Shown in pieces: positions 1,596 through 27,408 of a DNA stretch of 43,560 nt. Source of the DNA: a virus; the IMG/VR virus record IMGVR_UViG_3300021964_011721, positions 1 through 43,560 of that record; one strand, 5' to 3'. Position numbers and translations under genes: made by a program. Position 1 is the first letter of the stretch; every line of letters starts with the position of its first letter. Under the pieces are notes generated by a model. That model searched no databases. It had not been told where the DNA came from and saw only the letters and a program-made list of their open reading frames with translations.

Positions 1596-2389
1596 AAAAA
1601 TCACTCTCAGAAGTAGCATCAACTAATTCAGAAAATAAGTTTGGTGCTTTTAAATCTGTAGACGGTGATAAAGCAGTTATTGATCTTAACGAATTAAGAA
1701 AACATAACGTGTTCTTTGCGACTCCGTGTTATGGCGGTGTGCTTACTGATCAATACTTTTTAAGTATGTTTAGAATGTCACAAGCGTTTATGCAACATGG
1801 AATTAACTTTAGAATTACAACTTTACGTAATGAGTCTCTTATAACTCGTGCTAGAAACATACTAACTGCTATGTTTTTAGAAAGTGAGTGTACACATTTA
1901 ATGTTTATTGACGCTGATATTGAATTTCAAGCAGAGGATATAATGAGAGCACTTGCATATGATAAAGATATTATGGCTGCTGCTTACCCTAAAAAAGCTC
2001 TTCCAATTCAATACGCTATTAACTTTAAGTTTTTAAATCCAGAAACTAAACAGATTCGTACTGAGAACGGAGCGATTGAAGTTCTTGACGCATCTACTGG
2101 ATTCTTTTTAATTAAAAGAAAGGTAGTTGAAAAAATGATGCAAGCTCATCCAGAACTTCACTACCGCAATGATTCTAATATAGATCCAAAGTTTAACAAA
2201 TACTGTTATGCATTGTTTGATACTATTTTAGATCCTGATGACAATCGGTATCTTTCAGAAGACTATACATTTTGTAGAAGATGGCAAAAACTTGGAGGAG
2301 AAATATGGTTAGATCCTAATACTAAACTTAATCACGTTGGAGCATATACCTTTGAGGGTGATGTCTCTAAAATTATAAACCGTGGTTAA
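1592..2389 (+). CDS. GT-A fold glycosyltransferase (family 2/Anp1-like)
   Basis: This 265-residue protein shows the core of a GT-A nucleotide-sugar transferase. An N-terminal strand FFATPCYGG is followed by a helix and the metal-binding motif FIDADIEF near residue 110. A late SEDYTFCRRW acidic motif then precedes a LDP...NHVG segment carrying a candidate metal-binding histidine. It likely moves a sugar from an NDP-sugar to an acceptor. The acceptor may be DNA, a virion protein or host envelope sugar; the sequence does not say. It is translationally coupled to the ssDNA-binding gene by ATGA and overlaps the radical SAM gene behind it by 8 nt, so the three are probably made from one message. 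Confidence 0.7.
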   Translation: MKKSLSEVASTNSENKFGAFKSVDGDKAVIDLNELRKHNVFFATPCYGGVLTDQYFLSMFRMSQAFMQHGINFRITTLRNESLITRARNILTAMFLESECTHLMFIDADIEFQAEDIMRALAYDKDIMAAAYPKKALPIQYAINFKFLNPETKQIRTENGAIEVLDASTGFFLIKRKVVEKMMQAHPELHYRNDSNIDPKFNKYCYALFDTILDPDDNRYLSEDYTFCRRWQKLGGEIWLDPNTKLNHVGAYTFEGDVSKIINRG

Positions 2390-3308
2390 AGTTAAAAGTT
2401 TAGAATATAATAATCCTGATTTTCAGGTAGAGGTTGAGTGGGACATAACTCAGCGTTGTAACTATAGTTGTAGTTATTGCGAAAGTTATGACAATACTCA
2501 ACCTTTTTATTTTAAATCGTTAAAGGAATATATTTCTGCATTTTCATATTTAAAAGATTACTTTGGTAATAAAAAGATAAAATTAAGTTTTCTCGGTGGA
2601 GAGCCTACATTGTATAAAGACTGGCCAGAGCTTATGAATTGGTTAAATGAGAACGGTTTTATACCGCACCTTACAACAAATTTATCCGTTCCAGTAGAAA
2701 AATATATTTACCGATTAAATAATATGTCCCCATTTATTTCTGCTAGTTTTCACCCTGAGTATTCAGATAAAACTGAATTTATTAGGAATATTATGGCACT
2801 TGAAAAAAGAAAATTAATCAAAAACGTAAATGTTCTTGGTCTAAAAAATAAATGGCAATACTGTGTTGACGTTTTTAGTGATTTAAGCAAAATAAGAAAA
2901 ACAGGGATGACAAGAATTAAAGATGAGTTTACTGGAACCTTGAGTATTGCTAATAAATATGTAGAATATTCTAAAGACCAAGAAAAATATTTTAAAAAAC
3001 GAGATCAAACAGACAAGTTTATGACAATAGAATTAGATAATGGAGAGATTATGCATCCTTCAATTAATGCTATCAGATCTTCAAATATGATAAATTTCAA
3101 AGGAATGAGATGTGAGATTGGAGTACAAAGACTTCACATCAAACCAAACGGAGACACATACCCAAGTGCGTGTATGTTAAATTATCCAAAAGCCGTCATG
3201 GGTAATATTTATAAAGAGAATCTAAAAAAGGTTTCTAAAGCAGTAACTTGTCCGTTTAGTCTATGTTCTTGCGCACCAGATATAAGAATAAAAAAGACAC
3301 AATTATGA
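2382..3308 (+). CDS. Radical SAM protein with SPASM-like cysteine C-terminus
   Basis: The CxxxCxxC motif at C26, C30 and C33 (CNYSCSYC) binds the [4Fe-4S] cluster that cleaves S-adenosylmethionine. The LGGEPTL motif follows at about residue 70. The C-terminal 60 residues carry several more cysteines (MRCEIG, SACML, CPFSLCSC) spaced like a SPASM or twitch auxiliary-cluster domain. Enzymes of this architecture usually modify peptides or small molecules. The substrate is unknown. The start is GTG, overlapping the glycosyltransferase by 8 nt. It is the first of four radical SAM genes in the window. Confidence 0.85.
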   Translation: MVKVKSLEYNNPDFQVEVEWDITQRCNYSCSYCESYDNTQPFYFKSLKEYISAFSYLKDYFGNKKIKLSFLGGEPTLYKDWPELMNWLNENGFIPHLTTNLSVPVEKYIYRLNNMSPFISASFHPEYSDKTEFIRNIMALEKRKLIKNVNVLGLKNKWQYCVDVFSDLSKIRKTGMTRIKDEFTGTLSIANKYVEYSKDQEKYFKKRDQTDKFMTIELDNGEIMHPSINAIRSSNMINFKGMRCEIGVQRLHIKPNGDTYPSACMLNYPKAVMGNIYKENLKKVSKAVTCPFSLCSCAPDIRIKKTQL

Positions 3309-4046: not shown

Positions 4047-5891
4047 ATGAAAACAATAAGTTTAGTACAGCCAAACTTTCCTATGAGTATGAAAAATGAT
4101 AGATTTTTCTTTCCATATTCTGCAGGAACAATCTGGTCATATTTAGACAGTTTTAAAGACAATAATTTCACTTTGAATGAGTTAGTATTTAAACGTGACC
4201 CTGTAAATGAAGTAGTAAAAAAGTTAGAAGGAGATAGTGTAGTAGGTTTTTCTACCTATATGTGGAATAGGCAGTACAATCTTATTTTAGCTAAAAAATT
4301 AAAAGAGATAAGCCCAGATACTGTAGTTGTATTTGGAGGACCTGAGATGGAAATCTTAAACTATAAGTTTTTTGAAATGTTTCCTTTTATAGATATGCAC
4401 GTAATAAATGAAGGTGAGCTTACTTTTAAATCAATTGTTGATAATTTAGACAATTGGGATTCTATACCAAATATAATCTATAACAATAAAGGCAAGACCG
4501 TAAGTACTAAACCAGGTCCTAGAATTATGGACTTAGAGCTGATACCGTCTCCATATTTAACAGGAGTTTTTGACAACTTAATAAATTCTTATCCAGATTA
4601 CAAGTTTATAGCAAGTATAGAAACTAATAGAGGATGCCCTTATCAGTGTACTTTTTGTGATTGGGGATCGCTTACCTATAACAAAATAAGAAAGTTCCCT
4701 ATTGAAAAGGTGTTTTCAGAGGTAGAGTGGGTATTTAATAATCCTAATGTTGATAATATTGATATTGCTGATGCTAATTTTGGTATTTTCGTAGAAAGAG
4801 ATGAATCAATAGTTGATAAGTTTATTGACGAAACTCGAAGAACAGGTAGAAATATAACATTCAACTCAAACTACGCAAAAAATCAAAATGTAAGTGTTTT
4901 TCATATGATTAGAAAACTTGCAGAAGAGACAGGGGGTACTCGTAATGTGACGATCGCTCTTCAAAGTTTAGATGAAGAAGTACTAGAATCAATAAAAAGA
5001 AAAAACTTAGCTACTAATAGAATAGAAGAAATTTTTGAGGTACTTACTAAGTTTGAACTTATGCTAAAAATAGAAATAATTATAGGACTTCCATCTGATA
5101 CCCTAGATAAGTTTAAACAGACAGTATATGACTTATTTGATATATCTCCAGACATTCAAATTCATACTTATAAACTTATTGCACTTAACAATGCTGAACT
5201 AACTATTAAAGAGCAGGGCGGTGTTAAATGGAAAAACATCAAAAATTTTGTTGATAATAGTGTTGATAGCATAGATGAAACATTTAATTGGGTTTACAGT
5301 ACTAATACAATGAGTCATGATGATATAATTTCTGCTATAATATTTGCAATGTTTATTCAAACTTTTCACGTAAATGGATTTTCACAGGTACTTGCTATCT
5401 ATTCTCATCGTAAAGGGATAACTTATAAATATTTTTATGATACACTCCTTAAAATATGTTATAAGGATGATTTACTTGGTAGCTATTTGAACAATCTTGA
5501 AAAATCATATAAAAAATGGTATCAAACAGGAGAATCATGTTTAGAACCAATAAAAGATATTTTATTTGGGGCTAATAATGATATGTCCCATCTTACAGCT
5601 AAGATACACGCAGAAAATTTATATGATCATATATTTAGGATTCTTGAGGACTTCATGAAATTTCTTAACTTATATGACGAGGAGTTATTAAAAATTCAAC
5701 GAGCTGTACCAATTTACTTTAATAAACAAGATGATTACCCGTTAACTTTAAAGTATAATAATAAAGATATAAAATTTTTAAATTTAAATGCTACTGAAAA
5801 GAACCACTCTCACTTTATAAATAATTTACACTATAAAAGAGAATCAGGTTTTGGAAGAGCTAAACTTATAGGACTAGAACACATTCAATGA
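4047..5891 (+). CDS. B12-binding-type radical SAM protein
   Basis: A 614-residue protein in two parts. Residues 1 to about 150 form a Rossmann-like cobalamin-binding-type domain (VVGFSTYMWN, VVVFGGPEME), without the classical DxHxxG histidine that I could place. From about residue 190 comes the radical SAM barrel with C197, C201 and C204 (RGCPYQCTFC), followed by an IDIADANFGI strand and an IIIGLPSDT segment. The last 200 residues are unknown and helical. Family members use B12 for methyl transfer to unreactive carbons, or as a structural domain only. It lies between a methyltransferase and the gp47 gene and overlaps the latter by ATGA. The substrate is unknown. Confidence 0.85.
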   Translation: MKTISLVQPNFPMSMKNDRFFFPYSAGTIWSYLDSFKDNNFTLNELVFKRDPVNEVVKKLEGDSVVGFSTYMWNRQYNLILAKKLKEISPDTVVVFGGPEMEILNYKFFEMFPFIDMHVINEGELTFKSIVDNLDNWDSIPNIIYNNKGKTVSTKPGPRIMDLELIPSPYLTGVFDNLINSYPDYKFIASIETNRGCPYQCTFCDWGSLTYNKIRKFPIEKVFSEVEWVFNNPNVDNIDIADANFGIFVERDESIVDKFIDETRRTGRNITFNSNYAKNQNVSVFHMIRKLAEETGGTRNVTIALQSLDEEVLESIKRKNLATNRIEEIFEVLTKFELMLKIEIIIGLPSDTLDKFKQTVYDLFDISPDIQIHTYKLIALNNAELTIKEQGGVKWKNIKNFVDNSVDSIDETFNWVYSTNTMSHDDIISAIIFAMFIQTFHVNGFSQVLAIYSHRKGITYKYFYDTLLKICYKDDLLGSYLNNLEKSYKKWYQTGESCLEPIKDILFGANNDMSHLTAKIHAENLYDHIFRILEDFMKFLNLYDEELLKIQRAVPIYFNKQDDYPLTLKYNNKDIKFLNLNATEKNHSHFINNLHYKRESGFGRAKLIGLEHIQ

Positions 5892-13492: not shown

Positions 13493-13978
13493 ATGCCAGA
13501 ATATGTAAAGACACTAGATAATTTTTGGAGAGAAGACCTTAAAAAACACACATATACTAAGCAAGTACCCTTCGTTGCAAAAAATTTTGATCACTTAGAT
13601 AGATCATACTATAATAAAGACTTCTTACTTCAAAGTTTTAATAGTGAAGTACCTTGTTACGTTAAGTTTAAGGATATTTTAAATGTCGTACACGCATCTG
13701 TTAGCTGGACTAATATATTACCTAATGTTATACTTCCTACTCATAAAGATACTTTTTATACCCTTAGACAAGAACATAATGTAGAATTTGATAATTGTTT
13801 CAGGTACTTAATTTTTTTAGATAATTGGGAATTTGGACATTATGTGGGTTTTGAAGCTGTAAACATTACTCATTGGAAAGCAGGAGATGTATGGAAGTTC
13901 ACGGGTCACGAAATGCATTATGGTATAAATGCAAGTAATAATCCTTTTCACACTTGCCAAGTAAGCACATTTAAATGA
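13493..13978 (+). CDS. Short 2OG-Fe(II) oxygenase-like protein (Asp/Asn hydroxylase type)
   Basis: A 161-residue double-stranded beta-helix protein. The iron-binding HxD pair is H84 and D86 (PTHKDTF), and a distal histidine is H139 or H142 (GHEMHYG) after the strand HWKAGDVW. FRYLIFL forms the middle strand. This layout matches aspartyl/asparaginyl beta-hydroxylase-like oxygenases. The arginine that usually holds 2-oxoglutarate near the end is not obvious; the position reads NPFHTCQ. It would hydroxylate a peptide, sugar or base; nothing identifies which. It resembles the protein at 16811 in the HxD and WKAGD segments. Its stop overlaps the UDP-sugar dehydrogenase start by ATGA. Confidence 0.6.
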   Translation: MPEYVKTLDNFWREDLKKHTYTKQVPFVAKNFDHLDRSYYNKDFLLQSFNSEVPCYVKFKDILNVVHASVSWTNILPNVILPTHKDTFYTLRQEHNVEFDNCFRYLIFLDNWEFGHYVGFEAVNITHWKAGDVWKFTGHEMHYGINASNNPFHTCQVSTFK

Positions 13979-14709
13979 CTTTTGGTATTTTAGGGTATGG
14001 CTACGTAGGGAAAGCAACGCACAAAGGATTGTTAAAAGACAGCAAAGTAATCATATATGATATTACCTTTGATATCGATAAAAATATTATATATAGTGCA
14101 GATACTGTTTTTATCTGCATCCCAACAACGAGTGACGAAGACATAGATATTCTTATTAAGGAAGCAGAAGATCTTAAAAGTCACAATCCTAGTGTAGAAA
14201 TAGTTATTAGAAGCACGTTACCTCTAGGAACTAGTAATAAACTACAAACAATACTTGGCCCTATCATTTATATGCCTGAGTTTTTAAGAGAAAGATATTG
14301 GGATACTGATTGTCATAATCGACCATTAATTTATGGTTTTGATAATAATTATATACCAGAATGGCTAAAGTCAGAAAAATTTTATAAGTGTTCTACAAAA
14401 GAAGCAGAGCTTCTTAAAATGTTTTCAAATAATTTTTCTGTAATGAGAATAGCTTATGCAAACGTATTTTATGATTTAGCTCAAAGTGTAGATGCGGATT
14501 ATGATACCGTAAAGAATTTATTCTTTAAGATTCAACAGACTCAAACTTACATGGAAATTCCTGGGCATGACGGCACTAGAGGGTTTGGTGGTAAATGTCT
14601 ACCTAAAGATTTAGATTTCCTAATTAACACGCTTGAGAAGCATAAAATAAATCAAAATTGGTTTAAACACATTAGAGAGTTAAATAAGGAATGGCAAGAA
14701 AAGTTTTAG
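13975..14709 (+). CDS. UDP-glucose/GDP-mannose dehydrogenase-family protein, short form
   Basis: The N-terminal GYGYVGKATHKG is the NAD-binding loop. STLPLGTS and MPEFLRE are typical of the family, and the catalytic cysteine lies in GFGGKCLPKD near residue 208. The enzyme would oxidise the C6 hydroxyl of an NDP-hexose to a carboxylate. At 244 residues it lacks the C-terminal UDP-binding domain of full-length enzymes (about 400 or more residues), a short form also seen in some large phages. It overlaps the epimerase gene by 19 nt, so both probably act on the same NDP-sugar. Confidence 0.8.
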   Translation: MTFGILGYGYVGKATHKGLLKDSKVIIYDITFDIDKNIIYSADTVFICIPTTSDEDIDILIKEAEDLKSHNPSVEIVIRSTLPLGTSNKLQTILGPIIYMPEFLRERYWDTDCHNRPLIYGFDNNYIPEWLKSEKFYKCSTKEAELLKMFSNNFSVMRIAYANVFYDLAQSVDADYDTVKNLFFKIQQTQTYMEIPGHDGTRGFGGKCLPKDLDFLINTLEKHKINQNWFKHIRELNKEWQEKF

Positions 14710-15584
14710 TAACAGGCGCTTGTGGACTTATAGGATCTGAGCTTTGTAAACAACTTAGAGAACAAGGTTACTTTGTTGTAGGAGTTGACAATGGCTTCAG
14801 GTCTTCTCATTTTACTAATTGTGGTGATTTTGTTAAAGAATCTATAGAAAAATTTGTGTTAACTGTTCCTAACGTTTTTGATTATATATTTCATATGGGT
14901 AATATAAATGGGACTAAGTATTTTTACGACATTCCTAATCAAGTACTAGAAAATAATATTGGAGCTGACTTTGCCATCTTCAATTATGCGAAGCAAAATT
15001 CTAAATGTAAGTTAATATATGCCTCATCCAGTGAAGTCATAACGGGTACAAGAAATTATCCTACAGATGAAGAAAAGGATGTTAATATAGCCAATATTCA
15101 CAATCCCAGATGGAGTTATAGAGTAGGAAAGATTGTAGGAGAGAATTATCTAATTAACTCTACTTTAAATTATCTAATTATTAGATTTTTTAATGTTTAT
15201 AGCGAAAACAGTGAGGGTGGACATTTTGTAAAAGATTTAATAGAAAAGATAAAAAGTAGTAATTTTGAATTAATCGGTGCTAAAGAAACAAGATGTTTTT
15301 GTTACGTGGCTGACGCAGTTGACGCTGTTATAAACATTAAGGATATCTCGAATGAGATTATTAATGTTGGATCAGATGAAGAGATTTATATTTTAGACGC
15401 AGCTAACATTATCGCTAATTCTCTTAATATTAAAAACATAAAATGGAAAACTAAAAAGAGACTTGAAGGTAGTGTCAAAAGAAGAAAGCCAGATTTAAGT
15501 CTTTTAAAAAAACATTATCCATGTTATGATCCAAGATCATTTGCTAAGGGGATAAGTAAAATAATAGAAATGGAAAAGAAATGA
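14691..15584 (+). CDS. NAD-dependent sugar epimerase/dehydratase (extended SDR)
   Basis: A 297-residue extended short-chain dehydrogenase. TGACGLIG (residues 8-15) binds NAD(P), YASSSEV supplies the catalytic serine, and Y143-x3-K147 (SYRVGK) is the catalytic pair. RFFNVYSE and the late region resemble UDP-glucuronate decarboxylases and UDP-glucose 4-epimerases. Following a UDP-sugar dehydrogenase, it may convert the uronic acid to a pentose or epimerise it; the precise product cannot be read. Its ATG lies inside the end of the dehydrogenase gene and its own stop overlaps the glutaredoxin start by ATGA. Confidence 0.85.
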   Translation: MARKVLVTGACGLIGSELCKQLREQGYFVVGVDNGFRSSHFTNCGDFVKESIEKFVLTVPNVFDYIFHMGNINGTKYFYDIPNQVLENNIGADFAIFNYAKQNSKCKLIYASSSEVITGTRNYPTDEEKDVNIANIHNPRWSYRVGKIVGENYLINSTLNYLIIRFFNVYSENSEGGHFVKDLIEKIKSSNFELIGAKETRCFCYVADAVDAVINIKDISNEIINVGSDEEIYILDAANIIANSLNIKNIKWKTKKRLEGSVKRRKPDLSLLKKHYPCYDPRSFAKGISKIIEMEKK

Positions 15585-16810: not shown

Positions 16811-17347
16811 ATGCTTTTTAAAAAAATTTTTTTAGAGTACGATTTTTCACACTTCACTGATAAAAATCATGAAGAAGTTGGAAAGCATTCCTGTACAACT
16901 CATCAAGAAAACGATAACCCAGAATTATATGAAAAGCTTGGAGGAATACCTGATTCCTATAACTTACATAATACAATCATCTACCAAATGTGGTATGACA
17001 ATGAAGAGTTAAAAAAAGAGTTAGGAAAACAATTAGGAATTGATGCGGTTTCTGTTTCAAGCATCATGCAGCCATGTGGTAATACCATAACTGTACACTC
17101 AGATCATTTTTATAAAATTAAGACAGCTTTCCCAAACGATAATAGAAAAAAGGTAAGAGCTAATATCTTTCTCAAAGATTGGGAGCCAGGGCACATCTTA
17201 CAGTATAAACATAAAGACAAATGGGAATCTCCTATATACTGGAAGGCCGGAGATGGATACGTTTGGGACAGCGATGTTTTACATCTATCTGGAAATTCTG
17301 GAATGATACCTAAATTTACTTTGCAAGTTTCTGGATTTATTGTCTGA
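16811..17347 (+). CDS. Second 2OG-Fe(II) oxygenase-like protein
   Basis: A 178-residue cupin-type protein. The HxD pair is H96 and D98 (TVHSDHFY), and H158 (VLHLSGN) is the likely third iron ligand. The strands RANIFLKDW and IYWKAGDGY correspond to FRYLIFLDNW and THWKAGDVW of the oxygenase at 13493, so the two are distant paralogues. As in that protein, no clear 2-oxoglutarate-binding arginine follows the last histidine (the segment reads PKFTLQVSG). It abuts the first member of the 17-25 kb paralogous family (the two share one base), which hints that it tailors the same product. Confidence 0.6.
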   Translation: MLFKKIFLEYDFSHFTDKNHEEVGKHSCTTHQENDNPELYEKLGGIPDSYNLHNTIIYQMWYDNEELKKELGKQLGIDAVSVSSIMQPCGNTITVHSDHFYKIKTAFPNDNRKKVRANIFLKDWEPGHILQYKHKDKWESPIYWKAGDGYVWDSDVLHLSGNSGMIPKFTLQVSGFIV

Positions 17348-18522
17348 TGACAATTAATTTTATTTACGATAATTTAGAAAACGTACAAAATCCAATTCCA
17401 AATGGTATTGAGCGTAAACATCTCAAAGAAATCTATGTCAAAAATTTTCAAAACTTTAGAAAATACTCTCCTTTAAGATCTGCTTCTTTTCTTAATCTCC
17501 CTAATATAAATAATACTAAAATTAAATACGATAGTAAAGGTATATATCCTATAGCTTTTGATAGTATATCAAATTCAATTGATGAGTATCAAGTAAGAAA
17601 TCTTGTAACATATGGAATATCTAATTTAGCTAAAAGACTAATAAACAACGAAAATTTAAAATTAATAGTTTTCTTAAAAGAGCCTATCTCAAAAAAAAGT
17701 ATATATTCTCTATACTATACCTTAAAAGAATTTTTCAATGAATTTATAATATACTCAGATTTCATACCACAAGATGATATGAGTGATCATTTAAGACACA
17801 ATCTTGCTTGGGAACACTTTACTGAAATTAATGAATTTAAATTTTCAAAACCATTTACTCAAGCTAATGATAAAATTAATACTGAGAAACATGAAAAGCT
17901 TATATTTGGAGTCCCTGGCTATACTAATAATCTTTTTGATTTTAAAGCAGCTGCTGCATTTAGCTTGATGGAACTCGGTTTAGACAAAAATTGCGCAATT
18001 TCTTTTATTAAAGATGTTGAGATTTGGGAAAACTATACAAGAGAATCTTCAATTAAAATAAATTATATTGTAGAATCGTTAAAATCAAAATATTCAGATA
18101 AAATGTACGGAAACTTATCCTATGATGATTTATTTATTAAACCTTTGATGAATTTAGTTGTTGGCCCTTATATGGAAGTTAATAACGTAGACGGGATTGA
18201 CTACCCTTGCATAGCTGATAAGATTTTTAAACCTATAAAACATAAATTGCCATTTTTATGTATATCACAAAAAGATACTTTAAAGGAATTTAAAAAAAGA
18301 GGATATAAAACTTTTCATCCTTATATAGATGAAAGCTATGATTCAATAGATAATAACGATGATAGACTATTTGAAGTTATTAAACAAGTTAATCATATTT
18401 GTAATCTAAGCGATCACGATCTAAGTTCCTTAATTGAAAAAATAAAACCAGTCTTAGATTATAATTATAATAATTTTAAATACAGGGTCAAAAGTGAAAT
18501 TGACTATCTATCAACACATTAA
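17347..18522 (+). CDS. Paralogous family member 1, glycosyltransferase-like
   Basis: A 391-residue protein, the first of five related genes. The family shares an N-terminal IYDN...PNGI, then KGIYPI (about residue 62), an LKLIVFL strand, an FDFKAAAAF helix (about 200), and a C-terminal block KIFKPIKHKLPF...TLKEFKKRGYKTF...DESYD. That C-terminal block resembles the sugar-nucleotide-binding half of GT-B transferases of the exostosin/fucosyltransferase sort (E/D-K, then K-x-P-F, then GYKTF). I infer a glycosyltransferase, without proof. In this copy the usual E-K is D-K. It is separated from copies 2-5 by the aminotransferase, amidinotransferase and SGNH genes. Confidence 0.5.
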   Translation: MTINFIYDNLENVQNPIPNGIERKHLKEIYVKNFQNFRKYSPLRSASFLNLPNINNTKIKYDSKGIYPIAFDSISNSIDEYQVRNLVTYGISNLAKRLINNENLKLIVFLKEPISKKSIYSLYYTLKEFFNEFIIYSDFIPQDDMSDHLRHNLAWEHFTEINEFKFSKPFTQANDKINTEKHEKLIFGVPGYTNNLFDFKAAAAFSLMELGLDKNCAISFIKDVEIWENYTRESSIKINYIVESLKSKYSDKMYGNLSYDDLFIKPLMNLVVGPYMEVNNVDGIDYPCIADKIFKPIKHKLPFLCISQKDTLKEFKKRGYKTFHPYIDESYDSIDNNDDRLFEVIKQVNHICNLSDHDLSSLIEKIKPVLDYNYNNFKYRVKSEIDYLSTH

Positions 18523-18537
18523 AAGAAATACTCGTTT

Positions 18538-19479
18538 ATGCCCGTAAATTATACAAACCTACCAGATAATAAAAATAAACCTTTTGGAGGTGCCTATAGT
18601 ATTTATGACAAAGAAACTTGTGATGTAAGAGACTATGCGATAAAGTCTTTTGACTCAACTATCTTCCGTGATAAAGATAAAATAGAAAAACTAAAGATTG
18701 ATTTTTTTAATGAATATAAAAAGTGGATGTTTTCTTCTCATAATATTACTGGATATGAAAGTTATAATACATTCTGTTTCACAAACGGTACTAGAGAATC
18801 ATTCTATAACTACTATTTAAGATATTTACCAACAAAACGATTAAGGCTGACGAGGGGAGAATACTATTTTAACCAAATGTTAAAAGGTATATACCCAGAA
18901 TATGTAAATTTTGAATGGCTTGAAGATTCCCCAATAAGAGAAAATGATTTTGTATTAATTAGTGTTCCATTTTCTGATACAGGAACAATCCCAAGCTTTT
19001 TAGAAGATATGCTTATCTCGTGTGATCTTCTTAAAGTGCCTGTTATGCTTGATTTAGCATATTTAAACATATCTAAAAATTTAAGCTTTAGTCTAGATCA
19101 TGAGTGTATAAAGTATGTTGTTACGTCTCTTTCAAAAGTGTTTCCTATAGAAAATTTTAGAATTGGATTAAGACTGCAAAAAGATGAAACCGAAGATCAA
19201 TTAAGTGTGGTAAACGAGCCTTACTATAACTACATAAACCTACTTAGTGCGCATGTAGGATTATCCTTAATAAGGGCTTTTCCTGCGAATTATATTTATG
19301 ACAAATATAAAAGTAAGCAATTAGAGTTTTGTGAAAAATTAGACCTAATACCCTCTGAATGTGTGTATTTTGGTATAGACCATAAAAATAAATATAATGA
19401 GTATAATCGAGGTAGAGATACAAATAGATTATGTTTTACTAGAATCTGGGATGGGAGGATGGATTATGAGCTGCAATAA
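18538..19479 (+). CDS. PLP-dependent aminotransferase-like protein (fold type I)
   Basis: A 313-residue protein with the fold-type I aminotransferase pattern. TNGTRESFYN is the cofactor phosphate loop, D172 in MLDLAY would hold the pyridine nitrogen, and K200 in SLSKVFP, followed by FRIGLRL, is the likely Schiff-base lysine. Class I aminotransferases usually have about 360-400 residues; here the C-terminal small domain is shortened. A sugar or cyclitol aminotransferase would suit the amidinotransferase that follows, since amidino groups go onto amines. The stop lies 14 nt inside the next gene, so the two are translationally coupled. Confidence 0.65.
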   Translation: MPVNYTNLPDNKNKPFGGAYSIYDKETCDVRDYAIKSFDSTIFRDKDKIEKLKIDFFNEYKKWMFSSHNITGYESYNTFCFTNGTRESFYNYYLRYLPTKRLRLTRGEYYFNQMLKGIYPEYVNFEWLEDSPIRENDFVLISVPFSDTGTIPSFLEDMLISCDLLKVPVMLDLAYLNISKNLSFSLDHECIKYVVTSLSKVFPIENFRIGLRLQKDETEDQLSVVNEPYYNYINLLSAHVGLSLIRAFPANYIYDKYKSKQLEFCEKLDLIPSECVYFGIDHKNKYNEYNRGRDTNRLCFTRIWDGRMDYELQ

Positions 19480-20488
19480 CGATTGGGATGATTTAAAAGA
19501 GATAATTGTAGGAGTAGCAGACTTTGCAAACATACCAATACCTAATATATCAGTTTTAAAATGTCAATTCCCTGAGTATGAGGAATCATATGTTAAACAA
19601 TATACAGGATTTTATCCACAACAAATTATTGATGAACAAAATGAGGATCTTAATATTCTTAGTGAAACCTTAGAAAAATTAGGTATAATAGTACACAGAC
19701 CTGATACAAGATTTGCTGAAAAAGAAATTTTATCGCCTTCTTGGAAAGGAAAAAATTGGCATTATCATTGCCCTCGTGATTTAACTTTAGTTGTAGGAAA
19801 AAACATAATTGAAACTCCCTCTCCTCTTTGGAATCGACAATTTGAGACATGGGCGTATAGAGATACTTTTTTTAAACTATTTAATGAAGGGTATAATTGG
19901 ATAAAAGCACCCATTCCTATACTAAGTGATGAAAACTATAAAAATGATACTAAAGGAGTTCCGTCACTAAATAATATTGAAATACTTTTTGAAGCTGCTA
20001 ACTGTGTAAGAGTAAACAAAGACATACTTTTTCAAGTAAGTAATACTGGTAATTCTTTAGGAGCAAAATGGTTACAGGCAGTTCTTGGTGATGAGTATAA
20101 AGTACATGAAGCTAAAAATTTATACTCCTACGCCCATTTAGACAGCACTATAATACCTCTTAAGGAAGGGCTCGTATTGTATAATGGGTCTAGAGTTAAT
20201 AGTGATAACGAACCTGATCTATTTAAGTCTTGGGAAAAAATTTGGATTCATGACATTGCAGGAGTTAGTGAAAAAGCAAAATTTAACTTACCTTGGGGAG
20301 CCAGTGAGTGGATCGGGTTAAACATGTTAAGTATAAATAGTAAATTAGCTATAGTTGATAAGAAACAAACACATGTTCATAAAGAATTAAATAAGCATGG
20401 AATTGACGTAATCCCTTTAGAATTAAGACACGACAGATTGATAAGTGGCGGATTTCACTGCGTAACCTTAGATCTTAAAAGAGAATAA
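19466..20488 (+). CDS. Amidinotransferase (StrB1/AGAT family)
   Basis: A 340-residue enzyme of the arginine:amine amidinotransferase family, which moves the guanidino group of arginine to an acceptor amine. The start is placed at the ATG preceded by GGGAGG at 19453-19458, giving N-terminal SCNNDWDDLKEIIVG. The catalytic cysteine is C332 (GGFHC) and the histidine H224 (YAHLDST). The acid is E176 (FEAAN), where StrB1 and AGAT have aspartate. Spacing of the three matches StrB1 (Asp179, His227, Cys332). NTGNSLGAKWLQ and STIIPLKEGLVL also match. With the aminotransferase it may make a guanidino-sugar, guanidino-cyclitol or guanidinoacetate-like compound. Confidence 0.88.
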   Translation: MSCNNDWDDLKEIIVGVADFANIPIPNISVLKCQFPEYEESYVKQYTGFYPQQIIDEQNEDLNILSETLEKLGIIVHRPDTRFAEKEILSPSWKGKNWHYHCPRDLTLVVGKNIIETPSPLWNRQFETWAYRDTFFKLFNEGYNWIKAPIPILSDENYKNDTKGVPSLNNIEILFEAANCVRVNKDILFQVSNTGNSLGAKWLQAVLGDEYKVHEAKNLYSYAHLDSTIIPLKEGLVLYNGSRVNSDNEPDLFKSWEKIWIHDIAGVSEKAKFNLPWGASEWIGLNMLSINSKLAIVDKKQTHVHKELNKHGIDVIPLELRHDRLISGGFHCVTLDLKRE

Positions 20489-20490
20489 TA

Positions 20491-21174
20491 TTGAATAATT
20501 TAGTAGTGTGTGGTGATAGTTTCTCTTTTGGAGACGATGAAACTGATTGGACAAAGATAGTAGCTAATAAACTCAATCTTAACCTCGTCAACCTATCTAT
20601 AATTGGTTGTAGTAATTTAGCTATTTGTTATCAAATAGATTACGCTATAAAAAATTTAAATTTTGATTTGATGGTTATAAATTTAACTACTGCTGAAAGA
20701 TTTGAAATCGATGACGATGATTTGAATTACCCTGCAAGTATCAAAGATTTTAGAACAAACTTAGATGAGTATGAACATAACAGATTTGACAAAACTCCAT
20801 CAATTATTTCTGGTAATATTATATTACATCTAAGAAATTCTAAACTTGATAGAATCAAAAATAAATTACAAAATTTGTCATTAAGATTAAGTGCTCAAAC
20901 TCAATCTTGGGCTTTACAACATCTTTTAAAAGGTTTAGGTAATAAATTTTTGCTATATAGAAATATTTTTCCTGTATTTTATCACGATTTGAAAAAATAT
21001 GAAAATGAGCATTACTTTGAGTTAGATGATATACTTATCAATTCAGGGGCACATGATTTTGAAGAAAATAAATCTAAAGAAGAAAAAAATTCAAATCACT
21101 TATCTATAAGTGAGAATAAAAATTTTGCAGAGAGAGTTTTAAAAGACTTCAATGAAACTAAATTTTGTCTTTGA
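20491..21174 (+). CDS. SGNH/GDSL hydrolase-like protein
   Basis: A 227-residue protein opening with VVCGDSFSFG, the GDSx nucleophile block of SGNH hydrolases. GCSNLA follows near residue 39 as a block II glycine, and a C-terminal NHLS supplies the block V histidine, with asparagine in place of the usual aspartate. Family members remove or transfer acyl groups on sugars and lipids. The start is TTG, 3 nt after the amidinotransferase; no nearby ATG fits. It overlaps family copy 2 by 23 nt. The missing acid may lower activity or be replaced elsewhere. Confidence 0.6.
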   Translation: MNNLVVCGDSFSFGDDETDWTKIVANKLNLNLVNLSIIGCSNLAICYQIDYAIKNLNFDLMVINLTTAERFEIDDDDLNYPASIKDFRTNLDEYEHNRFDKTPSIISGNIILHLRNSKLDRIKNKLQNLSLRLSAQTQSWALQHLLKGLGNKFLLYRNIFPVFYHDLKKYENEHYFELDDILINSGAHDFEENKSKEEKNSNHLSISENKNFAERVLKDFNETKFCL

Positions 21175-22321
21175 TAATGAAAATATTCCTAACGGTATTG
21201 AAGAAAAACTACAAAAAATTTACATTAAAGATTATGATACATTTAGCAATCTAACGGATATTAGGATGCCAAAAGTCTTAAAATTTTTTGATCACACAAA
21301 AGAAGTACTTAGTGAGTCAAGCAAAGGTATATACGCTATTGAACTTAATCCTGATAACCCTGATCACTTTAATATTAAAAATATAAAATGTATAATTGAA
21401 CTATATGTGTCAGACTTAGCCCGTAAAAAAATAAAAAATGGCAGTATAAAACTTATATTTTTTTTAAACTTTGAAACATATAATACTAATAAGCTTTTAC
21501 AAATTAGTGATCTGTTGTCAGAAAACTTTGAAGATTTTACTCTTTACACTAGGTCAACTTTACTTTGTAGCAGAGATAAATTTAGACATATTTGTTACGA
21601 TGAGATCTTGATATTACGTGAAAAAGAGTTTAATGTAGGCATAAGAAAAAATTATCCTTATATAACTTTAAATGATAAAAAACTTTTTAACATATTAGCA
21701 TATGGAAGAGAATTATTAGATTTTAGGGCTGCAGCAATACAAATACTTTTTAATTTAAATGCACATAAAAACTCCTTAATAACAGTTTCAAAAGATACAG
21801 GTATAGAAAAAAACTTTACAAAAAATACTTCAAATAAAATTAACCAATTAGTAGAGAAAACAAACTTTCAAGATGATACTTTTAATGATGCTTGGGGAGT
21901 TCCTTTACCGTTTACTGAAATATTTAAAAATACCAAGATAAGTTTTATTTTAGCTCCTTATTTTGATTTTTATGAATTTGATTATCCATTTTTAAACGAA
22001 AAAATAATCAGGGCAGCCTTTCATAAACAACCCTTTTTAATACTGTCGCAACAAGGAACTTTAAAAGCGTTTAGATCAAAAGGCTATAAAACGTTTCATC
22101 CTTATATTAATGAAAATTATGATAATATAGAAAACAATGATGAAAGATTTTTTGAGGTGATAAAACAATTTTTGTATTTAAATAGTTTATCTGATAAAAA
22201 ATTAAGTGAATTTTTTAAAGACGTAAGTCCTGTTCTTACTCATAATTTCAACATTTTTTATACCGTTATTAAAAATGAATTTGATTTTCTTATGAAAAAA
22301 CAAAATGACTGCATACTATGA
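21152..22321 (+). CDS. Paralogous family member 2, glycosyltransferase-like
   Basis: 389 residues with the family pattern: VFDN...PNGI at the N-terminus, KGIYAI near 60, LLDFRAAA near 185, and a C-terminal NEKIIRAAFHKQPF, GTLKAFRSKGYKTF, NENYD block. The DESYD motif has become NENYD, a loss of the acidic pair that sets this copy apart. The N-terminus is shorter than in copies 3 and 4. The ATG lies 23 nt inside the SGNH gene, and the stop lies inside copy 3. Function is inferred only from the C-terminal similarity to GT-B glycosyltransferases. Confidence 0.5.
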   Translation: MKLNFVFDNENIPNGIEEKLQKIYIKDYDTFSNLTDIRMPKVLKFFDHTKEVLSESSKGIYAIELNPDNPDHFNIKNIKCIIELYVSDLARKKIKNGSIKLIFFLNFETYNTNKLLQISDLLSENFEDFTLYTRSTLLCSRDKFRHICYDEILILREKEFNVGIRKNYPYITLNDKKLFNILAYGRELLDFRAAAIQILFNLNAHKNSLITVSKDTGIEKNFTKNTSNKINQLVEKTNFQDDTFNDAWGVPLPFTEIFKNTKISFILAPYFDFYEFDYPFLNEKIIRAAFHKQPFLILSQQGTLKAFRSKGYKTFHPYINENYDNIENNDERFFEVIKQFLYLNSLSDKKLSEFFKDVSPVLTHNFNIFYTVIKNEFDFLMKKQNDCIL

Positions 22322-23513
22322 TATAGTAAAAGGAAGCACCGTAATACCGAACGGTATCTACTCTAACAGACATATTGAAAAGTTTGTTACACAAAACCCC
22401 CATAGTGCTACTGGAATAGCATTTGGGCACTCTGAACTAATTAAAAAAGCAATCAAAATTGGAATGCAGTTCAAACTTAAAAAGCTCGATAAAAACAGCA
22501 AAGGTATTTACCCAGTTTCATTTCAAGAGCCTAGCGCCATTAATAAGATATACTGTAATTATTTTTTAAATGTGTGTATTTCCGAGTTAGCAAAAGAAAA
22601 AATACTTAATCATGACCTTAAGTTAATAATATATTTAGAACAAGAACCTGTCTCTGAAAAGCAATTTTTTGAACTATTTAATTGTTTGCAGAAAAGTGAC
22701 TATGATAATTTTCTTATATACTCTACATTTTTACCTAAAAATTATGAAAATGATGATATACTAAAAAAACATGTAAAGCCATCCTATAGAGGAGAAGTTG
22801 AGTGGTTTACAAGAGAAGATTATTTAAATCTTGTTCCAGAAATTATAGATAAAAACTTTTATACTCAACCAAATAATTCTCATCACGATAAATTAACTCA
22901 CAAAAATATTAAATCAGTTGTTTTTAATCATACTTGTAATAATTATGATTTTAGAGTTGCTACTGCATATTATCTTTTAAAAAATAATCTTAGTGAAGTG
23001 TGTGCTGTATCATACAACTCATCTTATCCTATATTGAAAAATTTCACATCAAAAAGTCCAAAAATTCAAGAGTTTATTCAATCGCCTGATATTAAAAAAA
23101 CTCTTGAATCAACTTATGGTTATTTAAGTAGAAGTGATTTAAAAAAAGGAGATATTCATTTAGCTTTGGAAGCATATTTTAGTAATGATTTAATAAGTTA
23201 CCCCTACGTTACTGAAAAAAGTATTAGGAGCATCACTTTAAAAAAACCTTTTTTAGTAGTAGGCCAAAAAGGAACACTAAATGAGATAAGGCGTAAAGGA
23301 TACAAAACTTTTCACCCAATTATTGATGAAAGCTATGATCTAATAGTTGATAACGATGAAAGATTTTTTACAGTTTTACAACAATTTTCAAACATAATTC
23401 GTCTACCGGAAAAGAAGTATAAAAAATTTTTAAGTAAGTTAGATGACATAGTAAATTACAATTATGAGATTTTTAAAAAAAAGTTTTACAGTGAAATAGA
23501 TTGGTATCTTTGA
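22305..23513 (+). CDS. Paralogous family member 3, glycosyltransferase-like
   Basis: 402 residues, the fullest example of the family: PNGIYSN, KGIYPVSF, NKIYCNYFLNVC, NYDFRVATAY, then TEKSIRSITLKKPF near residue 303, GYKTF near 330 and DESYD near 340. The TEK...KKPF...G..GTL order is what one sees in the nucleotide-sugar-binding domain of exostosin/fucosyltransferase-type proteins. Copy 4 is its closest relative in the window (both share PNGIYSN and TEKSIRS). The ATG overlaps copy 2 by 17 nt, and copy 4 begins directly after its stop. Confidence 0.52.
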   Translation: MTAYYDIVKGSTVIPNGIYSNRHIEKFVTQNPHSATGIAFGHSELIKKAIKIGMQFKLKKLDKNSKGIYPVSFQEPSAINKIYCNYFLNVCISELAKEKILNHDLKLIIYLEQEPVSEKQFFELFNCLQKSDYDNFLIYSTFLPKNYENDDILKKHVKPSYRGEVEWFTREDYLNLVPEIIDKNFYTQPNNSHHDKLTHKNIKSVVFNHTCNNYDFRVATAYYLLKNNLSEVCAVSYNSSYPILKNFTSKSPKIQEFIQSPDIKKTLESTYGYLSRSDLKKGDIHLALEAYFSNDLISYPYVTEKSIRSITLKKPFLVVGQKGTLNEIRRKGYKTFHPIIDESYDLIVDNDERFFTVLQQFSNIIRLPEKKYKKFLSKLDDIVNYNYEIFKKKFYSEIDWYL

Positions 23514-24707
23514 ATGAAAATACTTTTTGAAAAGACAAATGATTACTTCTTTATGCCTAATGGAATTTACTCAAATAACTTAAGTAATTGCTTTACCTCA
23601 AATTACAAAAAATTTAAGTATTATACTCCCATGAAAATACCAGAAATAATATCATGGGCATTCAAAGATGAAAGATATCTATTAGAGTTTGCTTTTGTTG
23701 CTGAACATAGTCGTGGAATATTTCCAATTTTATTTTCAGAGCCGTCTTTTTTAAGTGCAATCAATTGTAATTATTTTATCAATGTTTGTCTATCAGGTTC
23801 AATAAAAGAAAAGATAAATAATAAAGACATAAAACTTATTATCTTTATAGATGGTGAACCTATTAATAAAAATCAATTTTATAATTTATATAACTCACTA
23901 ATAAAGAATAGTATATCTAATTTTTTAATTTTTAGCAATTTTCTACCAACTGAATATGAAAAAAACTTTGAATTACAAAAAAAAGTTAAAAGAAGTTCAA
24001 GAAGCGAGTGTTGGAATCATTTTGTTAGCTTAAGTAATAGAGAAGTTACTAAGTTTAAGCATAATAAAAATATAATCGCAAATGCATTAGGTTTTAGTGC
24101 TAATTTTAATAACTATGATTTTAGAGCAGCAGCTGCATATGCATTATTTAAAAAAGGTCTGGATAAACATTGTTATATTAGTTACAATTCTGATGTAAAA
24201 ATAATTAAAAATTTTACAACTGGCTTTGAAAAAATAAATAAGTTACTTAATAATTCTGATGTAAACTTTGAGCTAAGTAAGAGTTATAAAAGATTAGATG
24301 AAAAATTAATTAGTAAAACTAAAATATCCTTAGTTTTAGAAGCCTATCTGGACTTTGAAATTGCAAAAGAAGTTTATCCTACTGAAAAGTCTATAAGATC
24401 TATAAAAAATAAACAAATATTTGTTTTGTTAGGACAAGCAGGAACACTAAAAGAATTAAAAAGAATGGGTTATAAAACTTTTGATAATTACATTGATGAA
24501 AGTTACGATAGTATCTTAGATAATAGCAATAGATTTCAAGCTGTAATTTCTGAATTTGTAAGAATAGTTTCTTTGCCATCAGATAAATTAGAAACGCTAC
24601 TTGAAGAGGTAGACCATATTTTAAAATATAATTATAATCTTTATTTAGAAAAGATTGAAAAACAGCTAAAGTTACTTCATATAAAAAAGCATGATCCTAA
24701 TCTATGA
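23514..24707 (+). CDS. Paralogous family member 4, glycosyltransferase-like
   Basis: 397 residues: PNGIYSN, RGIFPILF, INCNYFINVC, NNYDFRAAAAY near 200, then PTEKSIRSIKNKQIF, GTLKELKRMGYKTF and DESYD. The K-x-P-F motif of the other copies is altered to NKQIF here. It begins at the base after the stop of copy 3 and ends 17 nt inside copy 5. Nearness of copies 3 and 4 in sequence and position suggests a recent tandem duplication, now well diverged. The inferred role is sugar transfer. Confidence 0.5.
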   Translation: MKILFEKTNDYFFMPNGIYSNNLSNCFTSNYKKFKYYTPMKIPEIISWAFKDERYLLEFAFVAEHSRGIFPILFSEPSFLSAINCNYFINVCLSGSIKEKINNKDIKLIIFIDGEPINKNQFYNLYNSLIKNSISNFLIFSNFLPTEYEKNFELQKKVKRSSRSECWNHFVSLSNREVTKFKHNKNIIANALGFSANFNNYDFRAAAAYALFKKGLDKHCYISYNSDVKIIKNFTTGFEKINKLLNNSDVNFELSKSYKRLDEKLISKTKISLVLEAYLDFEIAKEVYPTEKSIRSIKNKQIFVLLGQAGTLKELKRMGYKTFDNYIDESYDSILDNSNRFQAVISEFVRIVSLPSDKLETLLEEVDHILKYNYNLYLEKIEKQLKLLHIKKHDPNL

Positions 24708-25176
24708 TAATATAGAAGACGGCGTACCCTTACCAAATGGGTTGGATTCTCCAAAGCTTAAAACTATATATTTAAATAATTTTTATGAATATACAAATTA
24801 CTGTGCTTTGAGATGCCCCAAGTTTATCAAAGCGCAAGACAAAAAATTAGAATTAGATACTAAAGGTATATATCCAATTTCAATTGACGCCTCTTTTAAC
24901 GATACTGTTAACTCATTTTTTGTTAGAAACTTAATTAATGTTGGTATATCTGAAATGTCTTTCAATAAAATAGTCAAAGGTGATCTAAAACTTGCAGTAT
25001 TTATTGAAAATGAACTATCTAACGGTAACTCATTTTTTGATTTATACTTTGTTCTAAGCGAGTATTTTAAAAATTTTTTAATTTATACAAGTAAAACATA
25101 TGATAATCTTAATAGTGAAATGAAAAATCATTACAATAGTGATTTTTTTAAAAAAATTGGAGATAAAAATTACTAA
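24691..25176 (+). CDS. Paralogous family member 5, truncated to the N-terminal half
   Basis: Only 161 residues, matching the first 40 percent of the family: LIYDN, PNGL, KGIYPISI, VRNLINVGISE, LKLAVFIE and FLIYTS. It stops just where the other copies go on into the central FDFRAAA helix and the C-terminal GT-B-like block. Its N-terminus is nearest to copy 1 (IYDN, VRNL, GIS). The reading frame ends inside the start region of the nuclease gene, so the missing half was probably lost in a recombination that joined the two. It may still be translated from its ATG, but it lacks the putative sugar-binding half. Confidence 0.5.
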   Translation: MILIYDNIEDGVPLPNGLDSPKLKTIYLNNFYEYTNYCALRCPKFIKAQDKKLELDTKGIYPISIDASFNDTVNSFFVRNLINVGISEMSFNKIVKGDLKLAVFIENELSNGNSFFDLYFVLSEYFKNFLIYTSKTYDNLNSEMKNHYNSDFFKKIGDKNY

Positions 25177-25615
25177 TAAAAGTAAGCTAAAAGGTTCTGC
25201 TTATGAACAAAAAATTGCAACCCGTCTTTCAAAGGAGTTAAACAAAGAGTTTAGACGAGTGCCCTTGTCAGGTTCTATAGACTATCTTAAAGGCGACATA
25301 TGGGTTCCCTCTGATACTGCTTGGTGGCCTTATTGTATTGAAGCTAAGCATTATAAAGATTTACAATGGAACAATTTGCTTACATCTAAGACTACCGATA
25401 TTCTTAATTTTTGGAAACAAACCTTAAGGGAAGCCGAAGTGATGGATAAAAAACCACTACTTATCTTTAGGTGGAACAGATCTAAAGATTTTATTGGTTA
25501 TATAGATAATTTTGACGAAATACCGTATATTGAGATAAAATCTTTTGGATATAAATTTAGGGTCTCACTATTAGACGAGTGGATAAATGCTTACAAAAAA
25601 GAATTTTTGCAGTAG
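25139..25615 (+). CDS. PD-(D/E)XK nuclease-like protein
   Basis: About 145-158 residues with the core of a PD-(D/E)XK nuclease: an N-terminal helix KGSAYEQKIATRLS, then GDIWV supplying the acid, and IEAKHY giving the E-x-K pair, followed by a helix with a glutamine (FWKQTL). Such small phage enzymes are structure-specific, Holliday junction resolvase-like or end-processing nucleases. The start is uncertain. A GTG at 25139 and a TTG at 25157 have no Shine-Dalgarno, while GGAG at 25159-25162 is well placed for an ATT at 25169. The gene overlaps truncated family copy 5 and runs 29 nt into the next radical SAM gene. Confidence 0.7.
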   Translation: MIFLKKLEIKITNKSKLKGSAYEQKIATRLSKELNKEFRRVPLSGSIDYLKGDIWVPSDTAWWPYCIEAKHYKDLQWNNLLTSKTTDILNFWKQTLREAEVMDKKPLLIFRWNRSKDFIGYIDNFDEIPYIEIKSFGYKFRVSLLDEWINAYKKEFLQ

Positions 25616-26687
25616 ACCTTTTAATGAACTTCATATAGAAGAAGATGGTAAAGTTACTCCGTGTTGTGTTATGCCTTCTAATAGATTCTATTTTGGAGAA
25701 AATTTAAAAGACTATACGCACAGTACTAAATTAAAAGAGATAAGAAAATCATTTTTATTAGATGAACGCCACCCATATTGTGAAAACTGTTGGGCTTCTG
25801 AAGACTTAGGAATAAGATCTCATAGAAAGCAAGATTACAGTGATTTAAAAAACACAAAGTACATACATTTAAGACTCAATAATGTTTGTAATTTTAAGTG
25901 TAGAATGTGTAATCCAAGCTTTTCATCTACTTGGGAAATTGAAAATAAAAAACACAATTATTTTAAGCAAGATAATAAAATAAATAAAGATATATTTTCA
26001 GATAATGCATATTTATTTGAATTTTTACGTCGAAACATTGTAGAAGGTAAGCTTGAATTCATTAATATTTCAGGGGGAGAACCTTTAATAACCGATGCTC
26101 ATGAGAAATTAATTACTTTTTTAATAGATAACGACCTTACTAATATAAATTTAGCATATTCAACAAACTTATCTAATTTAACGTATAAAAAACTCGATTT
26201 ACTAAAACTCTGGTCTAACTTTAGGCATGTTACCTTAGAAGCAAGTTGTGATGGTTGGGGAAATGCAGTTGAATACTCAAGAACAGGTTTTGACCTACAA
26301 ACCTTTAAAGAAAATCTTATCAAAACCTTAAACAGACCAAACTTAGTTACTAAAATTCATTGCATAGTTAACATTTATAGCGTTTGGTCAATTCCTACAC
26401 TCTTAAACATAGCTCGAAAACTAAATATTGATGTTATGTTTGATCCCCTATATTATCCAGAATTTTTGAACCCTCAAAGGTTAGGTAGGGAAGATAAAGA
26501 TAACTTACAAAAACTTTATGAAAATGATTCTACTTTGAAAAATCTATTTAAAAAGTATATTAACATTGATTTACCAGAAATGTATAAAGAATTTATTGAC
26601 TATAATACTATGTTAGATAGGTATAGAAATACAAGTTTTTTTAAAGTTTTTCCAATGTATGAAAAATATTATGATACTACTAGCTAA
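25587..26687 (+). CDS. Twitch-domain radical SAM protein
   Basis: A 366-residue protein in which the auxiliary-cluster part comes first: C8 (FCSRPF), C26-C27 (TPCCVM) and C65-x2-C68 (YCENCW) form an N-terminal twitch/SPASM-like unit. The radical SAM motif C101, C105, C108 (CNFKCRMC) follows. ISGGEPL near 160 contacts SAM. This reversed order is found in a group of phage and bacterial twitch-domain radical SAM proteins. The substrate is unknown; a peptide or sugar is plausible. It overlaps the nuclease gene at its start and the SGNH gene at its end, 29 nt each. Confidence 0.85.
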   Translation: MLTKKNFCSRPFNELHIEEDGKVTPCCVMPSNRFYFGENLKDYTHSTKLKEIRKSFLLDERHPYCENCWASEDLGIRSHRKQDYSDLKNTKYIHLRLNNVCNFKCRMCNPSFSSTWEIENKKHNYFKQDNKINKDIFSDNAYLFEFLRRNIVEGKLEFINISGGEPLITDAHEKLITFLIDNDLTNINLAYSTNLSNLTYKKLDLLKLWSNFRHVTLEASCDGWGNAVEYSRTGFDLQTFKENLIKTLNRPNLVTKIHCIVNIYSVWSIPTLLNIARKLNIDVMFDPLYYPEFLNPQRLGREDKDNLQKLYENDSTLKNLFKKYINIDLPEMYKEFIDYNTMLDRYRNTSFFKVFPMYEKYYDTTS

Positions 26688-27408
26688 TGGCTGTTCTCAC
26701 ACAGCTGGTGCAGAATTAGATGAAAAAAATACTGATTATTGCTATGAAAAAGCTTGGCCAGCAGAATTAAGTAATTTGTTAGGAAAAACTTCGATAAATT
26801 TAGCTAGGTCAGGAGCGAGTAATAATAGAATACTAAGAACTACAATTAATTGGATAAGTAAATACATAGCAGCAGGTAAAAAAGTAGAAAATTTATTCGT
26901 TGTAATTATGTGGTCTGGGGCATTTAGAACTGAAATAGCAACAGATAATAAATATGATGAGTCGTATTTTCATAATGGTTGGATGCCTTTAGTTGTTGGT
27001 AATGATGAATATTATAGAAAAAATTTAACTAAGATGGAGTACTTATATTATAAGTCTTGGACCTCTTTAAACTGTGTTCGCTATAGTTACACAAATTATT
27101 TATTAAATGTAATTAGCCTTCAATCTTTATTAAAAACACATAAAATTAAATATCTTTTCTGGAATAGTAGTCTTGCTGTAAAAAAGTATCCGGAAGAGCT
27201 AAGTAATTTTTACAACTTAATAGATGTCAATAGATTTCCTTATGTTAGAAATGAAGACTATAATTTTTCTGAATTAGCCAGCAAATATAACTATAAGTTA
27301 TCGGATATTTCTGCAAACGGTAATTTTAGATCTCACTTTGATGAACAATCGCAAATCCATTGGGCTAATTATATGTATGAACAAATCACTTCAAGAAAAC
27401 TATTATAG
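26659..27408 (+). CDS. SGNH hydrolase-like protein
   Basis: 249 residues opening with LLANGCSHTAG, an SGNH block I in which the nucleophile serine is in GCSHT, then RSGASNNRI as block II/III. HFDEQSQIHWANYM at the C-terminus offers the block V D-x(5)-H pair. Phage SGNH proteins of this NGCS type are common in marine phages, and their substrates are unknown; acetyl or acyl groups on glycans are the usual guess. An internal ATG at 26671 is an alternative start; neither has a strong Shine-Dalgarno. It ends the sugar/modification block; a 74-nt gap with promoter-like signals follows. Confidence 0.65.
   Translation: MKNIMILLANGCSHTAGAELDEKNTDYCYEKAWPAELSNLLGKTSINLARSGASNNRILRTTINWISKYIAAGKKVENLFVVIMWSGAFRTEIATDNKYDESYFHNGWMPLVVGNDEYYRKNLTKMEYLYYKSWTSLNCVRYSYTNYLLNVISLQSLLKTHKIKYLFWNSSLAVKKYPEELSNFYNLIDVNRFPYVRNEDYNFSELASKYNYKLSDISANGNFRSHFDEQSQIHWANYMYEQITSRKLL

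Follow-up and report, generated by a model that had tools for sequence, protein, structure and literature searches.

Known phage modules and the repeated gene family

In Campylobacter phages CP220 and CPt10, five radical SAM genes accompany an amidinotransferase in an interchangeable cluster of unknown function (Timms 2010, PMC2853527), and the CP220 annotation places two sugar-transferase-like genes beside this module. In Synechococcus phage S-SCSM2R (PQ898602), one gene run joins a DegT aminotransferase, a radical SAM protein, an oxygenase, an inosamine amidinotransferase and several glycosyltransferases (GTs). The IMG/VR virus fragment IMGVR_UViG_3300021964_011721, analysed over its whole 43,560 bases and referred to here as the window, contains an island of related composition. 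At its centre lies a five-copy gene family, and the best explanation, which we regard as likely, is that its products are soluble GT-B glycosyltransferases, making it a phage family that is still unclassified.

The window shares with CP220 and CPt10 several radical SAM genes, the amidinotransferase, sugar-transferase-like genes and a swappable cluster, whereas the transferases of those phages are annotated with a nucleotide-diphospho-sugar-transferase fold. S-SCSM2R even shares the oxygenase family (window gene 16811), but its GTs belong to other families. The GT-B family was not found in CP220 or S-SCSM2R, in a search run without a positive genome alongside. The window amidinotransferase (19454) matches StrB1, the inosamine-phosphate amidinotransferase of the streptomycin pathway (1bwd), over its full length (E 2e-89), which confirms the identity proposed in the first-pass annotation. 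Besides the StrB1 step, only an unrelated aminotransferase corresponds to that pathway, and a streptidine product is not evidenced. Open-licence papers yielded no description of the gene set beyond those cited here. The earlier statement that no phage system of this kind had been described is therefore upheld for the transferase family, as searched, but not for the module, since the CP220/CPt10 and S-SCSM2R relatives are on record. The module type is known in outline; the transferase family and wider island are, to the extent of these searches, undescribed.

The five copies occupy the following positions, where residue numbers refer to copy C:

17347..18522, + strand: GT-B family copy A, 391 aa; R217K, E289G and E304D
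21152..22321, + strand: GT-B family copy B, 389 aa; E289A
22305..23513, + strand: GT-B family copy C, 402 aa; all family residues present; structure predicted
23514..24707, + strand: GT-B family copy D, 397 aa; 40% identity to copy C
24691..25176, + strand: family copy E, 161 aa; N-terminal half only; same short form in the related phage fragment L010

Open reading frames (ORFs) are present at all five sites where paralogs had been reported, and all ten pairs match each other in blastp (E about 1e-11 to 3e-84). The individual values include 9e-62 for A and B (34% identity), 3e-84 for C and D (40%), 1e-37 for B and D and 5e-26 for E and A. Motif sharing was described correctly for PNG[IL] and KGI[YF], which occur in all five copies (the latter as RGIF in copy D). 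The DF[RK]xA helix and the C-terminal EK...PF...GYKTF...ESYD block, attributed to the same five genes, are confined to the four full-length copies (389-402 aa), and copy E lacks both.

A recent frameshift or pseudogene was ruled out as the origin of copy E, because L010 holds an equally short copy in the matching slot (150 aa, 38.5% identical); an orthologous gene also follows directly (25139, 73% identical in fragment L023). Copy E is an N-domain-only protein, perhaps a partner subunit.

Among 107 members, E114, R217, E289, E304, K305, P315, F316, G332, Y344, D345, R353 and N386 are near-invariant, and more than 90% of the members keep the first five. The H. pylori fucosyltransferase presumably relies on a matching series of residues: a Glu as base, then an Arg, then a Glu-Lys pair. 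Copies C and D keep every charged family position (copy D has I at P315) and look catalytically complete, judged by these residues.

Fold, kinship and distribution of the family

Searches of Pfam, PHROG and PDB sequences with the window copies gave no meaningful match. A 27-member profile retrieved only helical chance matches among PDB sequences and pointed consistently to no family in Pfam or PHROG. The AlphaFold2 model of copy C, built from an alignment of the 107 sequences, is confident (pLDDT 89.3, pTM 0.87). With Foldseek and VIA-align, its top PDB matches are all nucleotide-sugar GT-B enzymes or their relatives, aligned over residues 1-402. The best VIA-align match is a GT10 alpha-1,3-fucosyltransferase (Z 11.4, rmsd 5.4, 274 residues); others are the phage HY126 transferase (Z 11.3), exostosin and T4 beta-glucosyltransferase (Z 10.3). 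In BFVD, uncultured Caudovirales phages supply the best matches, which are uncharacterised proteins, one of them fused to a UDP-glucose/GDP-mannose dehydrogenase. In keeping with the GT-B reading of the first-pass annotation, the predicted fold of the family is GT-B, with two Rossmann-like domains and a C-terminal donor domain. The T4 and HY126 enzymes share with the family both this fold and a phage origin, but no sequence kinship is detectable. The substrate of the T4 enzyme is hydroxymethylcytosine DNA, whereas most records studied here lack PF00303 (thymidylate synthase/hydroxymethylase).

Profile comparison links the family to the GT10 alpha-1,3-fucosyltransferases (PF00852; 2nzw, 2nzx, 5zoi). 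Against GT10 homologs gathered from bacterial genomes, hhalign gives E 4.1e-5 at a probability of 70% and pairs ET....TEK..kpI..khPF with the GT10 donor motif EN....YiTEKifd...aG.vP, with T in place of N and a different spacing. This match supports the suspected nucleotide-sugar-type motif at the C-terminus. Among the controls, twenty GT10 alignments with shuffled columns, GT4 and further neighbour families reached E values no better than 0.033. Controls with UDP-glucose dehydrogenase and the oxygenase scored well at first because fused proteins stood in those alignments; with these removed, E rose from 0.003 to 0.23 and from 1e-41 to 0.02, respectively. The likeness (F.v.ET....TEK..kpi..k.PF against F.l.EN....YiTEK) comes with only about 12% identity. 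The family also differs in a C-terminal GYKTF..ESYD...R...N block beyond the GT10 motif and in its frequent multi-copy state. On this profile evidence, the family is probably a distant GT10 relative, yet one outside PF00852.

A conserved-peptide scan places the family in at least 522 IMG/VR stretches, counted among the first 598 listed, and 40 of 42 records searched whole contain two to six family matches. Searched by tblastn with five queries, a set of 50,697 phage records gave chance-level matches at most. This absence is not a search failure, because the window amidinotransferase and radical SAM protein find relatives in 13 and 40 of the same records. Among 84,980 prokaryote species genomes, scanned non-exhaustively with short peptide patterns, one contig matched; it belongs to a Pelagibacterales metagenome-assembled genome and has three matches plus island genes. 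This contig (L104, VHCC01000006.1) is probably phage, that is, bin contamination or an infecting virus. As a query, copy A alone retrieved no relative; two-copy or C-terminal-block alignments did, and the five-copy alignment held no stretch conserved enough for scanning. The family appears phage-restricted as far as searched; it is common in uncultured aquatic phages but did not turn up among records of phage isolates. A large family left blank by general libraries is now given a fold and a likely role. One further arrangement is found at L020:5829-7880, where two family copies are fused in tandem within a single 683-aa protein.

Gene neighbourhood and uneven divergence

The window encodes ribonucleotide reductase, MazG, PhoH, ThyX, a 5'-3' exonuclease and a lambda-J-type tail protein. 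The gene cluster reaches past the interval first delimited, through the genes at 16811, 25587, 26659, 13975, 14691, 2382 and 4047. Besides the family copies it comprises:

16811..17347, + strand: oxygenase-like protein; HxD...H motif read by eye; no match in Pfam or NCBIfam
18538..19479, + strand: pyridoxal phosphate (PLP) aminotransferase, PF00155
19454..20488, + strand: StrB-like inosamine-phosphate amidinotransferase; ORF opens at 19397, homology from about 19460
20491..21174, + strand: SGNH-fold esterase/acyltransferase-like protein; predicted fold, TesA Z 15
25587..26687, + strand: twitch-domain radical SAM protein; NF033640, score over its cut-off
26659..27408, + strand: SGNH-like protein, DUF6071
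13975..14709, + strand: short UDP-sugar dehydrogenase; GxGxxG and GFGGKCLPKD present; without C-terminal domain
14691..15584, + strand: NAD-dependent sugar epimerase/dehydratase
13493..13978, + strand: second oxygenase-like protein, 16811 family
2382..3308, + strand: radical SAM protein, kin of the island rSAM2 family
4047..5891, + strand: B12-binding radical SAM protein, KedN5-type methyltransferase-like

The SGNH assignment of the gene at 20491 was sound: its model, of moderate confidence (pLDDT 73), has an alpha/beta/alpha fold close to TesA, and G8, S10 (a GDS-like serine) and a late H203 are invariant or almost so. The dehydrogenase at 13975 keeps the N-terminal and central parts and is missing the C-terminal UDP-binding domain.

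Comparative search, a check put forward in the first-pass annotation, returned a recurrent sugar-decoration set in other phage contigs. Neighbours at 77 distinct loci were clustered into families and labelled by profile. Recurrent families are radical SAM/SPASM, UDP-glucose dehydrogenase, SGNH, B12 radical SAM, carbamoyltransferase, epimerase, amidinotransferase, DegT or other aminotransferase, and oxygenase-like. Sugar or amine genes occur at 61 loci, SGNH genes at 57 and radical SAM genes at 56. At nearly every one of the 15 amidinotransferase loci a family member lies at most three genes away, and most of these loci repeat a sub-cassette of B12 radical SAM protein, aminotransferase, amidinotransferase, oxygenase and GT. 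The aminotransferase slot is filled by a DegT type or, in the window, L010 and L023, by a PLP type. Fusions also occur: five contigs encode the family GT joined to a complete UDP-glucose dehydrogenase, and four contigs other than the window encode it joined to an oxygenase-like domain related to 16811. In the window, the gene at 16811 abuts copy A.

Two further neighbours were observed. A Pfam-less family with VDAD-like motifs, often of several domains (U544; e.g., L061:2706-5244 and L094:6284-8213), stands beside GT-B genes in 36 loci and resembles a GT-A transferase family. L010 encodes a 2-oxoglutarate-Fe(II) oxygenase (1939-3000), related to NCBIfam TIGR04324 (sporadic carbohydrate cluster), at the position occupied in the window by copy A.

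Divergence is uneven across these genes. Between the window and L010, identity falls from 98% (PhoH) and 97% (exonuclease) through 79% (amidinotransferase), 69% (radical SAM), 68% (aminotransferase) and 62% (oxygenase-like) to 52% for SGNH and 32-39% for the GT copies. Likewise, L014 and L025 share 94% in the dehydrogenase, 98% in the carbamoyltransferase and 99% in a neighbouring core gene, against 30-71% in the GTs and 33% in SGNH. For 149 pairs of close loci, not independent of one another, mean identity is 57.4% for GT, 60.4% for SGNH, 72.0% for radical SAM, 73.7% for other genes and 79.2% for sugar/amine enzymes; GT lies under the median of the other genes in 138 pairs. Some pairs reverse the pattern (L085/L087: 96% for GT, 71% for the others), which is what an exchange of cassettes would produce. 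A constant precursor sugar combined with changing linkages and acyl groups is the pattern that surface variation would give.

Proposed pathway, acceptor and rival explanations

The best reading of the island is a phage pathway for a guanidino- and acyl-decorated glycan with swappable linkages. Judged by their families, the UDP-sugar dehydrogenase and epimerase would supply nucleotide-sugar donors. The radical SAM, oxygenase-like, aminotransferase and StrB-like amidinotransferase proteins would then oxidise or aminate the sugar and attach a guanidino group, as enzyme families and conserved gene order suggest. The GT-B copies, with their predicted fold and profile-derived donor motif, would transfer sugars to an acceptor or to one another's products, and the SGNH proteins, from their predicted fold, might attach or strip acyl groups. 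The GT-B copies would thereby form the linkages and constitute the fast-changing module of the pathway.

Several points weigh against this reading. In 10 records, the PF00852 profile finds nothing in the family regions, and the hhalign probability to GT10 is just 70%. Copy A carries K217, G289 and D304 and may be altered in catalysis, and copy B carries A289. Sixteen of the 77 loci lack a labelled sugar or amine gene, many of them on short fragments; copies without sugar genes, which the first-pass annotation had named as evidence against itself, are thus present at the level of the locus, several on such fragments. Its idea of one transferase per linkage is not borne out, since copy E is half a protein and copies A and B are altered at active-site positions. 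Rapid GT divergence could stem partly from cassette replacement, and the arguments for a virion acceptor, namely soluble enzymes and nearby structural genes in L009 and CP220, are weak.

Membrane segments are hardly ever predicted in the island families, and the initiating transferase PF02397 is absent from 40 records; a complete lipid-linked glycan pathway is therefore not seen. Together with the rarity of DNA-hypermodification markers, this makes virion proteins or host-made glycans the likeliest acceptors. A phage virion protein, modified in the cytoplasm, is our tentative preference, held at somewhat less than even confidence. Locus L009, where a single family copy lies among genes that look by eye like T4-like structural genes, and CP220, whose module follows baseplate genes, point weakly in this direction. 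A more specific version, in which an aminoglycoside-like, guanidinylated, carbamoylated and acylated virion glycan would lend the particles serotype-like variation through fast swapping of a phage-only GT-B linkage module, is doubtful. The host surface glycan is a tentative candidate as well: remodelling during infection, through host lipid-linked intermediates, could serve superinfection exclusion or escape from other phages. A host O-chain role has been proposed, and favoured, for pelagimyophage glycosyltransferases (PMC7029224), and the rapid divergence of GT and SGNH resembles serotype variation. The missing PF02397 and scarce membrane proteins, however, would leave this route wholly dependent on host machinery.

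The remaining explanations are improbable. Hypermodification of phage DNA against restriction, by glycosylated or deazaguanine bases, would fit the fold likeness to T4 beta-glucosyltransferase (Z 10.3), the many radical SAM genes and the 2'-deoxy-7-amido-7-deazaguanosine (dADG) reported in Campylobacter phages (PMC6884629). As a general role it is weakened by its rare markers, since PF00303 occurs in 5 of 40 records, which may be fragments, and QueC exceeds its cut-off in 3 of 40; the window has neither and carries ThyX, and DNA modification leaves four to six diverged copies unexplained. DNA is accordingly an unlikely acceptor. A diffusible aminoglycoside-like small molecule acting on the host or competitors is an equally unlikely product. 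The StrB-like amidinotransferase, carbamoyltransferase, KedN5-like B12 radical SAM protein and aminotransferase are aminoglycoside or natural-product enzyme types, but no export, resistance or regulatory genes were seen, lytic infection is short on time, and the divergence of GT and SGNH better fits surface variation. Nor do we give much weight to the copies being non-catalytic GT-B-fold proteins with a binding or scaffold role. Residue losses in copies A and B and the half-length copy E would suit such a role, whereas retention of E114, R217, E289, E304 and K305 across the 107 members and fusion to a dehydrogenase that makes nucleotide sugars argue for catalysis.

The glycan-decoration pathway would offer a reason for radical SAM, SGNH and amidinotransferase genes moving together in phages, which was remarked on as odd for Campylobacter phages in 2010. 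It also makes it possible to test whether phages add unusual sugars to themselves or to their hosts.

Four other window genes lie outside the features listed above. A radical SAM gene (phrog_21308, 33658-34644, - strand) sits within the tail-fibre operon beside tail genes and might modify a tail protein. A further glycosyltransferase with the GT28 C-terminal domain (PF04101, 29557-30678) follows thyX and has a 65% identical counterpart in L023. An Anp1/GT2-like protein (phrog_1574, 1592-2389) is possibly a GT-A glycosyltransferase, and a methyltransferase (PF13578, 3465-4043) adjoins the B12 radical SAM gene.

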